From contig NZ_JAFWOM010000138.1 of assembly GCF_017545445.1 (NCBI RefSeq), positions 1 to 64,000 of the forward strand: a DNA stretch of 64,000 nucleotides, in the 5' to 3' direction. Origin of the DNA: Fibrobacter sp. GTDB taxonomy: Bacteria > Fibrobacterota > Fibrobacteria > Fibrobacterales > Fibrobacteraceae. A program made the position numbers and the translations under genes. The notes under the pieces are model-generated. The model saw only the letters and a list, made by a program, of their open reading frames with translations. It was not told where the DNA came from and did no database searches. Shown here piece by piece: positions 7,678-34,252 of this stretch (the stretch's first letter is position 1; the number at the start of each line of letters is the position of its first letter).

Positions 7678-8259
7678 ATGATGTTTAAGAAAATTCTTAT
7701 TGCCGTTGCCTGTGTTTCGCTCTTGTCTTTTGCTGCCGAAGATCCTGTATCTGTCGTGAAGAGCAAGGACGTTGAATTGCAGAACATTATCAAGAAGTCG
7801 AAACGCACCGCCAAAGAAACGGAACGCGTCAAGAATCTTTTGAACGATTCTTTCGACTTTGCCCTCTTGGCTAAGAAGTCCTTGGCATCTAGCGTTTGGA
7901 AAGCTCAGGACGAAGCTTCTCAGCAGAAGTTCGTGACGGAATTCCAGCGCATGGTTCGCAACTCCAGTGCCAACCGCCTTGAACTCTACCGTGCCGATTC
8001 GACGATTTACGAACCGGCCAAGATGAAAGGCGATGACGAAGCTCGCGTTGTGGCTCACTTGTGGAATCAGGGCAAGGAATCTGTGCTCGAATACAAGATG
8101 ACGACCGTGAACGGCAAGTGGAAAGCTTGGGACTTGGTCATTGACGACCTTTCGACGGCTCGCAATTACAAGGAACAGTTCAGCAAGATTCTCAAAGACA
8201 AGAGCTTTGCCGAGCTGATTGATATTATCAGCAAGAAGGCTGACGAAGCCGAAAAGTAA
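7678..8259 (+). CDS. mlaC: MlaC-like periplasmic phospholipid carrier
   Basis: Matches the MlaC/Ttg2D family, soluble periplasmic proteins that shuttle phospholipids between outer and inner membranes. Signal peptide MFKKILIAVACVSLLSFAA, then the mixed alpha/beta MlaC fold with FVTEFQRMVRNSSANRLELY and the typical YKMTTVNGKWKAWDLVIDDLS segment. I place the start at 7678 rather than 7666, because GAGGAG at 7669-7674 is the obvious ribosome-binding site and the signal peptide begins there. The partner permease, ATPase and MCE protein (MlaE, F, D) are not in the window. The next gene starts on the stop codon (TAATG). Confidence 0.85.
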   Translation: MMFKKILIAVACVSLLSFAAEDPVSVVKSKDVELQNIIKKSKRTAKETERVKNLLNDSFDFALLAKKSLASSVWKAQDEASQQKFVTEFQRMVRNSSANRLELYRADSTIYEPAKMKGDDEARVVAHLWNQGKESVLEYKMTTVNGKWKAWDLVIDDLSTARNYKEQFSKILKDKSFAELIDIISKKADEAEK

Positions 8260-9452
8260 TGGGCTTCTTTTTCTGGTTCCTTTGTTCTATTCTCGTTGTA
8301 GCGCTTGTGCTACTGCTTTTCCCGTTTTCTGTTCGGATTGAATTTGAAGCGGGCGAACGCGGTGCGCGAGCGTTTTTCTATTTCTTCAAAAAGAAAGTTT
8401 ATGAATATGAGAAGAAATGGGGGGAAGAAAGTAGGAAGTCGGAAGTAGGAAGTAGGAAGGATGAAGTAGGCGGTGACGAGAGTGAGGCGAGGGAAGGCGG
8501 AGACGACTCTGCGGACACAAAGACCGGGTGTCATCCTGAGCGGAACGAAGTGAAGTCGAAGGATCTAGAGAGGCTGGAGACGAGAGACGATAGGGCGGAG
8601 GATGGTTCCCATGAGTTGTCATCCTGGAGCGAGCCGCAGGCGAACGATAGGATCCACAGGACTCCAGAAGCGGAAGAAAAAGAGGAAACGGCAGCTGTTG
8701 CGAAAAGGCCTACAGAAACTCTGAAGACGGAGAAAATGGGTAATGAAGTCGGAAGTCGGAAGTCGGAAGTAGGCAGTGGGACGGAGTTAGACGATAGACG
8801 AAAGAGTAAAGACGAAAGTGGGAAAAGGGACTACGGTGACAGTTCTGCGGACACAAAGACAGAGTGTCATCCTGAGCGGAACGAAGTGAAGTCGAAGGAT
8901 CTAGCAAAGTCTTCGTCTGTAATTGAAGTTTCATCTACGAAAAAAGACGAGTCCGAAAAGCCTTCGGGCCAAGCGTCGGAGGCGAAAGTTAAAAAGCCAA
9001 AACCAAAACTTTCTGACCGCGAATTTTGGACGATTCTCTTGACTCCGGATTTGGATGCAAGGGTGTTTAAGTACGCTTTGAAAATTATCGCCGCTGTTTT
9101 TTCTTTGTTCCGAATTCGCTTTAGCGATTGCTTTGTCGAGGGCATTCGTACAGATTATCAAACTATGGGCTATATTGCCGCGTTGAACGGAATCTTGAAA
9201 GCATACCCGTTTGTTGGTGATTGGGACTTGCGAATGGATTGGCTCCATGAAAAAGAACTCCGTGCTACAGGGAATGTTCGCTTGAGTATTACGTTGCTCC
9301 GTATTTTCTGCTTTGTTCTAGAAACGCTTGTGCTGGCTGGGATTTTGGCGTTTATTTTTTGGCGTCGCCGTGCACATGTGCTTAAGACAAAAGAACTCCC
9401 GGAAATCGGATTTATCCGCAAAAAAATTGTCGATTTTATTTTGGAGGACTGA
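8259..9452 (+). CDS. DUF2953-like membrane protein with repeat-built linker
   Basis: The N-terminal membrane helix (about 3-24) leads into a domain split: residues about 50-235 are a highly charged linker, then a DUF2953-like region (ALKIIAAVFSLFRIRFSDCFVEGI) and a C-terminal membrane segment with FWRRR. DUF2953 proteins are short membrane proteins of unknown function. The extra linker is translated repeat DNA: two copies of CHPERNEVKSKDL come from the window's intergenic repeat, a third variant gives SWSEPQANDRIH, and runs of GSRKSEVGSRK come from 7-bp tandem repeats. Reading frame is kept throughout. It sits between mlaC and rsuA with overlapping stop and start codons. Confidence 0.7.
   Translation: MGFFFWFLCSILVVALVLLLFPFSVRIEFEAGERGARAFFYFFKKKVYEYEKKWGEESRKSEVGSRKDEVGGDESEAREGGDDSADTKTGCHPERNEVKSKDLERLETRDDRAEDGSHELSSWSEPQANDRIHRTPEAEEKEETAAVAKRPTETLKTEKMGNEVGSRKSEVGSGTELDDRRKSKDESGKRDYGDSSADTKTECHPERNEVKSKDLAKSSSVIEVSSTKKDESEKPSGQASEAKVKKPKPKLSDREFWTILLTPDLDARVFKYALKIIAAVFSLFRIRFSDCFVEGIRTDYQTMGYIAALNGILKAYPFVGDWDLRMDWLHEKELRATGNVRLSITLLRIFCFVLETLVLAGILAFIFWRRRAHVLKTKELPEIGFIRKKIVDFILED
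8424..8902 (+). repeat. Intergenic repeat copies inside the DUF2953-like gene
   Basis: Seven-base units (GGAAGTA/GGAAGTC) run tandemly at 8424-8469 and 8745-8778. The 'TCATCCTGAGC...GAAGGATCT' element occurs at 8531-8566 and 8867-8902, each preceded by the same TGCGGACACAAAGAC, so about 60 bp is duplicated. A variant lies at 8619-8657. The same families occur between genes elsewhere, for example at 27369, 19500 and 34183. Confidence 0.85.
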
Positions 9453-11048: not shown

Positions 11049-12230
11049 ATGTTGAAGATTGATAATTTGCCTAAAAAGGTCCGTTTTAATCTCCGGAACA
11101 AGGAGATTTTCCCCAATACGATTCTGAGTCCGATGGACGGAGTGACCGATGCTCCGTTCAGGCGGCTATGCCGCGTGCTTTCGGGCGACCGCATGGGGCT
11201 TTTGGTTTCGGAGTTTGTTCCGACAGACGGCGATGCCGTGTTCAACCCGGATGGGCACAAGCAGCTCAAGTTTTTCCCGGAGGAGCGCCCGTTTGGAATC
11301 CAGATTTTTGGACGGTTCCCGGACCGCATGGCGTATGCCGCAGGTAAAATTGCGGAAACATTTCACCCGGAATTTATTGAAGTGAATGCGGGTTGCCCCG
11401 CGCCGAAGGTAGCAGGCAAGGGAAGCGGTTCTGGTCTTTTGAGGGACTTGCCGCGCTTGCAAGAGATTTTGCATGAGGTGAAGAATACGCTTGATGCAAA
11501 AACGCCGGAGATTCCGCTCACGCTCAAGTGCCGCATTGGCTGGGATGACGAGAGCATCAACGTGATGGAAACGCTCAAAATTGCGGAAGGCGAGGGCGTC
11601 GAAATGTTGACGGTTCATGGCCGCACGCGTTTGCAGGGCTATAACGGCCTTTCGAATTGGGACTGGATTGGAAAAGTCGCTGCTGCGGCAAAGATTCCTG
11701 TGATTGGAAATGGCGACGTGAATAGTGTCGAATGTGCTCGCGAACGCATCAATACTTACGGTGTTTCGGGTGTGAGCATCGGGCGCGGGGCGATGCATAA
11801 TCCGTGGATTTTCGGACAAATTGCGGATGCGTGGGAAGGCCGCGAAAAGCATGTCATCACCGCGCAAGAAGCGCTTGATGTGTTCCCGCTCTATTACAAG
11901 TTTAAGATTGAGGACGGGGCGACGGAAATGAATGCGATGGGCCGTATGAAACAGCTCGCCGCGAGACTGTGCAAGGGATTTGTGCTGCAGGAAGAAATTG
12001 CGCAAAGCCGATCCCGGAACGGGGTCCGGGATGACAGTGAAGTGAGTGTCGCGATGTCGGTGCGGCAGGCGCTTTTGACGAGTCAGTCGGCGGCGGAAAT
12101 GCTCGACCGTGTTCAAGAACTCAAGGAAGGTATAGCTCGCGAGATGGTCTTTGAGCCAGAGCGCCTCGTAAATCTCAACGGTGCCAAAGAAACCGAATTA
12201 AAGTTTGGCGACCAGTTCAAGGGCCGTTGA
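11049..12230 (+). CDS. dus: tRNA-dihydrouridine synthase
   Basis: FMN-dependent enzyme that reduces uridines in tRNA D loops. The TIM barrel shows LSPMDGVTDAPFRRL at the start, VNAGCPAPKVAGKGSGSGLL with the catalytic Cys, VHGRTRLQGYNG, GNGDV and SIGRGAMHNPWIF. The family is normally 310-350 residues; this one has 393. Part of the excess is a translated repeat (SRNGVRDDS, about residues 321-329) placed in the C-terminal helical domain. Which positions of tRNA it modifies cannot be told. No good ribosome-binding site precedes the ATG. Confidence 0.88.
   Translation: MLKIDNLPKKVRFNLRNKEIFPNTILSPMDGVTDAPFRRLCRVLSGDRMGLLVSEFVPTDGDAVFNPDGHKQLKFFPEERPFGIQIFGRFPDRMAYAAGKIAETFHPEFIEVNAGCPAPKVAGKGSGSGLLRDLPRLQEILHEVKNTLDAKTPEIPLTLKCRIGWDDESINVMETLKIAEGEGVEMLTVHGRTRLQGYNGLSNWDWIGKVAAAAKIPVIGNGDVNSVECARERINTYGVSGVSIGRGAMHNPWIFGQIADAWEGREKHVITAQEALDVFPLYYKFKIEDGATEMNAMGRMKQLAARLCKGFVLQEEIAQSRSRNGVRDDSEVSVAMSVRQALLTSQSAAEMLDRVQELKEGIAREMVFEPERLVNLNGAKETELKFGDQFKGR
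12010..12036 (+). repeat. Intergenic repeat copy inside dus
   Basis: GATCCCGGAAC-GGGG-TCCGGGATGACA is a near-perfect inverted repeat and matches the copies just downstream at 12274-12300 and 12358-12385. It is read in frame. Confidence 0.75.
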
Positions 12231-19412: not shown

Positions 19413-19547
19413 ATGCTTTGGAGCGAGACTTGACTGGAGCCTATCGGTCGCGATGCTCCCTCCAGGATGACCCCAGAATGGTTCGGTAGGCTCAGTGAAA
19501 CATCCTTCCTACTTCCTACTGTCTACTGCCTACTAACCACTAACTAT

Positions 19548-27220: not shown

Positions 27221-27456
27221 CTAGGCAAAAGAACGGGCTTCGCACTACAGACGACAAATGCGTAAAGCGAATGTTGCAGGGCAGCTTGCTGACCTATAAC
27301 TGAGCGTAGCATTTGGTGCCTGTACAAAGACGAAAGAGTCTTGAGCTGAAATGTTGCGTTGTCTGTGTCATCCTGAGCGCAGGCGCACCGCGCCGAAGTC
27401 GAAGGATCTAAACCAGTATTGAAAATTCCGTGGCGTTATGCTGCGGGATTTTTTTT
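27221..27456 (+). repeat. Repeat region and terminator after ilvE
   Basis: Contains fragments of the GACGAAAGA repeat (27245-27345) and a variant of the 'TCATCCTGAGC...GAAGGATCT' element at 27369-27410. A terminator-like hairpin follows: AATTCCGTGGC with GCTGCGGGATT and eight Ts (27423-27456). Confidence 0.6.
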
Positions 27457-33479: not shown

Positions 33480-34250
33480 TCACAGATTCCCCTCACATTT
33501 GTCACCCCAGACTCCACACACCCTAACCACCAACCACTAACCACCAACCACTTTACTGGATTCTTCGACTTCGCCTTATGGCTCCGCTCAGGATGACACA
33601 GTCGGGTTACCCGATCCACTCCCATTTTTTAAGTTTACAACAGAATAAAAAAATGTCACCCTATTAATATAGGATGACACGTTCTTAGCCACTAACCACT
33701 GCATACTGCTTCTTTGCCACACGGATTCGAAATGCCTAACGGCATTTCATCGTGAGCGAAATCGCTTACACGGCACTAATCGCAGACACTTTGCCTATCG
33801 CATGCTTCTATTCTTATTATTTGCCACATGGATTGCATTAATTGCTAGAAAGAAAAAACGTTATTTTTTTTTCACAATCCGTGTGGCATCTTGCACAGTT
33901 CTATTTGCAGATACTGCACCAATCGCAGACACGGCACCCCTCGTGCTGTCACCCCGGCCTAAGGTCCCTGAGCTACGTCGAAGGGCCGGGGCCACCTTAC
34001 ACGGTTTCAATCGCATACACGGAACTGATTGCTTTCCCCTAACCACTGTTTACTAACCACTTCCAACAGCCTACTTCTAACAGCTTACTTCTTACTTGCA
34101 CTTTCACTTCGTTCAAGTGCCAAATGCTGGTCTCGGTCATGTCCAAGCAAGCTTGGCCGCGACGCTCGACCTACGCATTTGTCTTACTGCCTACTTCCTA
34201 CTGCCTACCTCCTATTGCTTACTTCTTACTTCCTACTTCCTACTTCCTAC
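33480..34250. repeat. Repeat-filled gap upstream of the nuo operon
   Basis: No gene is supported in about 770 bases. Contents: an inverted copy of the 'GGATTCTTCGACTTCG...AGGATGACA' element (33557-33600); a GTCACCCCGGCC ... GGGCCGGGG element (33949-33998); several copies of ATCGCAGACAC, also found near 53130; CTAACCACTAACCAC runs; and the 7-bp tract at its right end. nuoA would be expected here and is not present. Confidence 0.7.
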
Positions 34251-34252
34251 TA
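34183..34252. repeat. CTACTTC 7-bp tandem repeats just upstream of nuoB
   Basis: About ten imperfect 7-base units (CTACTTC, CTACCTC, TTACTTC), the last three identical, end 43 bases before the nuoB start, next to or inside the promoter. Confidence 0.75.

Follow-up and report, generated by a model that had tools for sequence, protein, structure and literature searches.

Short hairpin repeats within coding sequence: the linker of a Fibrobacter membrane protein and the loops of other conserved proteins

Palindromic repeats in genes and the Fibrobacter element

Palindromic repeats that lie in coding sequence have been documented best in Rickettsia, and they bear on the wider question of how disordered linkers and loops arise and change over time. 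The Rickettsia palindromic elements (RPEs; Ogata 2000 Science; 2002 Genome Res), as summarized in PMC10969869 and PMC3733652, are ~150 bp in length and belong to ten families, each of which has a conserved encoded peptide. The intragenic GTAG/CGTC REPs reported in several genera by Di Nocera et al. (2013, PMC3733652) are palindromes of 20-40 nt that are mostly intergenic, with some copies wholly within conserved genes, including tRNA-modification genes; Fibrobacter is unmentioned in that survey. The enterobacterial RU-1, RU-2 and RU-3 (ERIC-like) MITEs are 103-168 bp in length and form intragenic fusions (Delihas 2007, PMC2759123).

We have analyzed a stretch of Fibrobacter DNA of 64,000 nucleotides (the window) in which a family of short hairpin elements is found. 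The element has constant outer parts, TCATCCTGAGC ... GAAGGATC, that include an ATCCT/AGGAT stem, and the middle is a stem-loop that is variable in sequence and preserved in pairing. Individual copies are 24 to 42 nt in length, the flank consensus is GTG-TCATCC...GGATC-(C/T)AG, and sibling types have other arms, for example TCATTGCGAGC...GAAGCAATC and TCATCCCGG...CCGGGATC. The shortest class, TCATCCTGAGCNNNGCGAAGGATC (24 nt), makes up 16 of 50 copies and was seen at loci L078, L082, L092, L094, L117, L120 and L127. A strict definition of the hairpin was adopted, as a looser one picked up many matches by chance (128 in real versus 64 in shuffled sequence). The strict pattern occurs 53 times in the whole genome (G000) compared with 0 for a reversed-pattern control. 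Of the 71 genomes examined of Fibrobacter, a gut bacterium, 68 have the element, against zero reversed-pattern controls; it is near zero in most sister genera, and is rare or absent elsewhere in the family and the phylum. The inner stem covaries, with 99-100% pairing compared with about 89-93% in shuffles: two inner pairs of the 35-nt class alternate between A-U/G-C and C-G/U-A, and covariation in the 39-nt class extends to four inner pairs (100% pairing versus 88.8% in shuffles). From this covariation it follows that the hairpin structure is of importance to the element. An Rfam search of the window at the gathering threshold returned 0 matches, and the literature, searched for the sequence of the element and for repeats in Fibrobacter, gave nothing relevant and no earlier report from this genus.

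The Fibrobacter elements resemble the RPEs, as these are described, in being interspersed palindromic repeats that lie between genes as well as in frame within unrelated, conserved and functional proteins (here TilS, GT4, DusB and the host gene discussed below), in a manner compatible with host function, and in being absent from that site in some orthologues. They differ from the description in length (24-42 nt versus ~150 bp), in their covarying inner stem, in being read in several frames and from both strands, in being mixed with 7-bp arrays, in their turnover from species to species at shared loops, and in occurring in a different phylum; given the difference in length, membership in the RPEs proper is not claimed. 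Small size, a mostly intergenic location, the presence of some copies in genes and overlapping lengths of the encoded inserts (20-82 aa) are shared with the GTAG/CGTC REPs. However, the GTAG/CGTC end tag is not a feature of the Fibrobacter family, as a tag in any orientation lies within 6 nt of an end in only 5 of 50 copies, and assignment to the REP superfamilies was rejected. The Y1 domain of the RAYT transposase (PF01797), which is present in about one third of the relatives, gave 0 matches in G000 and G013, so that RAYT was rejected as the mobilizer in G000 and is not required in this genome. The RU elements are similar as intergenic repeats whose open reading frames are fused into annotated genes, and differ in being enterobacterial and, at 103-168 bp, far longer. 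Heptameric tandem arrays are also known in bacteria, the STRRs of cyanobacteria being one example; the Fibrobacter arrays share the 7-bp unit and differ in lying in frame within a linker and in being shared with intergenic arrays, and no membership is claimed. By analogy, the mode of action of the Fibrobacter elements would be like that of the RPEs, the intragenic REPs and the RU elements.

It is very probable that these hairpin repeats, which are mainly intergenic, have been inserted in frame in permissive loops and linkers, and that the linker of the host gene is one of the sinks. Sequence comparison supports this reading: the repeats can be identified as such and lie in frame, they turn over from species to species, selection is relaxed on the linker and purifying on the ends, and TilS, DusB and GT4 show the same pattern.

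The host gene and the repeats in its linker

The host gene (8259-9452, plus strand) encodes a 397-aa membrane protein with two transmembrane helices. It sits directly downstream of mlaC (PF05494) and shares one base with the start of a pseudouridine synthase gene. An initial reading of the DNA from sequence alone had named the protein DUF2953-like; this name could not be upheld, as the Pfam HMM of DUF2953 (PF11167) was unmatched at E <= 0.1 (0 of 50 orthologues). Comparison of the protein with Pfam, PDB sequences and PDB folds gave no convincing match, so that no function could be assigned to it. The conserved N-terminal part (aa 1-52, 8259-8414) is predicted by AlphaFold2 to consist of a transmembrane helix and beta strands, and the conserved C-terminal part (aa 250-397, 9006-9449) comprises a domain with the second transmembrane helix and is under purifying selection. 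Both ends have pLDDT values >90. The linker between them (aa 53-249, 8415-9005) is 46% Asp, Glu, Lys and Arg, is hypervariable across species and is predicted to be disordered, with pLDDT <50 for most of residues 63-238.

Two identical 35-nt copies of the element, TCATCCTGAGCGGAACGAAGTGAAGTCGAAGGATC, lie in the linker on the plus strand at 8531-8565 and 8867-8901, where both are in frame and read as CHPERNEVKSKDL. A third variant, TCATCCTGGAGCGAGCCGCAGGCGAACGATAGGATC, is found at 8619-8654 (plus strand) in a different frame and is read as SSWSEPQANDRI. The linker also has two 7-bp tandem arrays on the same strand: AAGTAGG x 6 at 8429-8470, which encodes an EVGSRK-type repeat, and GAAGTCG x 5.3 at 8745-8781. 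The two in-frame copies, the third variant and the two tandem tracts had all been noted in the sequence-only reading and were recovered here; the element pattern occurs three times in the window compared with a chance expectation of 0.00 (100 shuffles). That reading had also described a duplicated block of about 60 bp within the gene. A duplication is indeed present and is larger, with 94-nt copies at 8475-8568 and 8811-8904 (both plus strand) that are 85% identical and contain element copies 1 and 2, respectively. Because both elements sit within this duplication, they most likely derive from one insertion followed by one local duplication rather than from two insertions. The extent of repeat sequence had been put at about 180 residues, which proved too high: the elements and arrays account for ~185 nt (~60 aa), or ~300 nt (~100 aa) with the duplicates, so that only about 60-100 of the 197 linker residues are recognizably repeat-derived.

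The intergenic relatives that had been cited for these repeats exist at slightly shifted coordinates, as two elements and two 7-bp arrays. The elements are at 27368-27408 (plus strand) and at 33559-33596 (minus strand, with one mismatch at the 3' end); the arrays are at 19508-19534 and at 34185-34251, the latter being TACTTCC x 9.6, the reverse complement of the in-gene unit. In principle, slippage and duplication could have given rise to the repeats within the gene, without any relation to the intergenic copies, and the 7-bp arrays and the 94-nt duplication do show local duplication at work. The 35-nt element, however, belongs to a genus-wide family with ~50 genomic copies elsewhere that have unrelated flanks, and it is also found in unrelated genes, which makes an origin within the gene very unlikely.

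Variation of the linker and selection on the host protein

Approximately 65 Fibrobacter orthologues of the host protein were compared. Residues 1-52 and 250-397 can be aligned throughout, and the intervening region cannot: the linkers are from 49 to 220 aa in length and vary in sequence and repeat content. The alignment supports the sequence-only reading: the ends are conserved, and the linker differs between species in length, sequence and element content. Conservation of one linker at the protein level in distant strains, which the same reading had named as evidence against a repeat origin, was looked for and is absent.

The window protein falls in a strongly supported clade (100/98) of 15 members. 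The median length of the linker is 147 aa in the repeat-rich clade and 115 aa outside of it (p = 8e-4), and the genomic density of the element is 11.0 and 4.1 per Mb, respectively (p = 8e-5); across single genomes, linker length and element density are weakly correlated (Spearman 0.24, p = 0.07). Species outside the clade have linkers of 49-165 aa that are rich in Ala, Pro, Glu and Lys, with a composition similar to those inside (charged residues 41% versus 44-46%, hydrophobic residues 11-12%). The linker is therefore ancestral in the genus. The claim that intergenic repeat DNA had become the linker stands with respect to the repeat-derived, species-variable part and falls with respect to the origin of the linker, as the repeats colonized an existing linker and did not create it; composition was kept and the raw material changed.

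The peptides encoded by the elements differ between the linkers of sibling species. These include CHPERNEVKSKDL in the window protein, CHPEQNEVESKNL in L096, VILSEAKDP in L007, VILSETKDP in L010, and RHPEPRSGEG in L003 and L011. One and the same element is thus read in two frames, with VILSEAKDP and VILSETKDP representing one frame and CHPERNEVKSKDL and RHPEPRSGEG the other. The variant at 8619-8654 (the SSWSEPQ copy) is common only to the window gene and its G037 orthologue L002 (144 bp at 85%). The 7-bp arrays seen in the window protein are also found in L003 and L011; the units differ in other species, AATTCAA in L023 being an example. The linker of L023 consists of five 51-bp repeats, each with AATTCAA heptamers (NSEFKIQNSQLGSGGEG), and the closely related L105 is set apart by a single deletion of two units (102 bp). 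A clean empty site for the two identical element copies was not found, the linker of the nearest relative being 58% identical, so that insertion is deduced from comparison of the family rather than from one precise junction.

Several observations bear on whether the linker is still coding. The dN/dS ratio is ~0.2-0.6 for the linker, a range lowered by the protein-guided alignments used, and ~0.01-0.2 for the C-terminal domain in close pairs. Indels in the linkers of close pairs are multiples of three in 25 of 35 cases (p = 5e-6), and the codon score of the linker is positive in the annotated frame alone (+0.07 versus -0.10 to -0.25 in the five others). The dN/dS values point to relaxed selection on the linker and purifying selection on the ends. 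It is conceivable that the gene is decaying, the linker being debris and the protein non-functional, and in orthologue L115 (RUG12208) the frame is indeed broken between the linker and the C-terminal domain, by a true frameshift or by an error of metagenome assembly. Decay is nevertheless highly improbable given the low dN/dS of the domain, which is 0.06 in the element-bearing close pair L096/L097, the invariant residues that are preserved in 50 orthologues, and the predominance of linker indels in multiples of three. The dN/dS values, the linker indels and the AlphaFold2 model lend indirect support to a functional linker, which would be translated in vivo and dispensable in sequence, with the insert acting purely as a spacer.

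Repeat peptides in other proteins and the fate of genic insertions

The pattern is genus-wide, and the host gene is a single instance of it. A perfect hairpin related to the element, TCATCCCGGACCCCGTTCCGGGATC, lies at 12010-12034 (minus strand) in the neighboring dusB-like gene (11049-12230), where it is antisense and read as SRSRNGVRDD. The loop is species-specific, and orthologues carry VILNGVKDPV, YCHPGAEGDRI or CHCEDRRRACRERS there. Long open reading frames with elements also include a PP-loop ATPase (PF01171) with features of TilS, a tRNA-modifying enzyme, which is apparently single-copy in this genome (L135, G000:C36:6000-7724). This TilS-like protein has 604 aa compared with 349 aa in the shortest Fibrobacter orthologue aligned, a spread that is largely due to species-specific repeat peptides in two loops, which are swollen to ~95 and ~100 aa in L135. 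The peptides include DPSTPLHSAQDD, RSRNSVRDD, SLVSRLSS and others, the catalytic motifs are invariant, and the inserts are modeled as low-confidence loops between core elements. In a GT4 glycosyltransferase, one loop has CHPERNEVKSKDP, VILSESEGSS or HVIANEVKQSN depending on the species; the GT4 orthologues L165-L194 and L061-L063 differ in the repeat peptides that occupy, in frame, the same loops between and within the glycosyltransferase domains. Other element-bearing frames encode poly-serine lipoproteins with a Fib_succ_major domain and, as judged by eye, pectate lyase-like and type III restriction/methylation enzyme-like proteins. Such inserts can misdirect gene annotation, orthologue detection and structure prediction. 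Several of the relatives are metagenome assemblies and G000 has an estimated contamination of ~7%, which could suggest an artefact of assembly or binning; this is hardly credible, as the same kinds of insertion are found at the same loops in many independent assemblies, including low-contig genomes, with the frames open throughout.

In 464 kb of genome, the strict family definition gives 11 elements inside genes and 23 outside, compared with ~0.4 (0-1) in shuffles, and 7 of the 280 confidently called genes in this sample (~2.5%) have an element. A loose peptide-motif scan of 324 genes gave 8 matches compared with 6 in shuffled proteins, that is, no enrichment, and for this reason DNA-level patterns of the element were used. 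Only 8 of 40 GGATC-type elements lie in genes where ~33 would be expected (p = 2.5e-17). The elements are thus strongly depleted from genes, and most genic insertions are removed.

This depletion also bears on whether the elements are kept in genes for a role at the DNA or RNA level, as an mRNA hairpin or a binding site for gyrase or another protein, with the peptide being incidental. The covarying inner stem would fit such a role, as would the somewhat higher density of intergenic copies in convergent gaps (16 in 18.5 kb) than in divergent gaps (7 in 17.2 kb), which is also the case for REPs. Besides being depleted from genes, however, recognizable elements are missing from most orthologues of the host gene, and their orientation varies with the host gene, being sense in 8259-9452 and antisense in TilS and DusB. 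We consider retention for a nucleic acid-level role to be unlikely.

In the preferred reading, that of in-frame insertion into permissive segments, Fibrobacter genomes harbor 24-42-nt imperfect hairpins (TCATCCTGAGC, a variable inner stem-loop and GAAGGATC, as well as the sibling types) and 7-bp arrays, mostly between genes. Copies of these repeats would reach genes at random through a copying or recombination process, recombination between copies being a candidate route, and purifying selection would eliminate most genic insertions. Those that survive would be the ones that keep the frame, are free of stop codons, lie in a permissive, solvent-exposed loop or linker and maintain its hydrophilicity. 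In the host gene, an ancestral charged and disordered linker between the TM/beta segment and the TM-anchored domain would have been lengthened and partly replaced by repeats in the clade of the window protein, after which local duplication would have doubled one element-bearing block that then diverged in place.

A broader proposal, which we put forward tentatively and regard as possible though short of probable, is that a continuing process repeatedly delivers or swaps hairpin repeats at fixed permissive loops of conserved, even single-copy, proteins. Each species would therefore have its own repeat-built loops, and non-coding repeat DNA would be a main raw material for new disordered segments in the genus. 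Since the same loops of the host protein, TilS, DusB and GT4 can be compared with and without repeats in ~70 Fibrobacter species genomes, it should be possible to time the insertions, to follow selection before and after them, and to test directly the tolerance of the enzymes.

Two further observations were made. Over all copies of the element, the downstream consensus reads (C)AGTGAA and then becomes T-rich, for which reason some copies may be terminator-like. L080, L081 and L116 represent secreted or lipoprotein-like proteins whose poly-serine linkers contain elements (VILSGVEGSSSS, VPEPVEGSSSS and VILSSSSEGSS), and the elements may be one source of such linkers.
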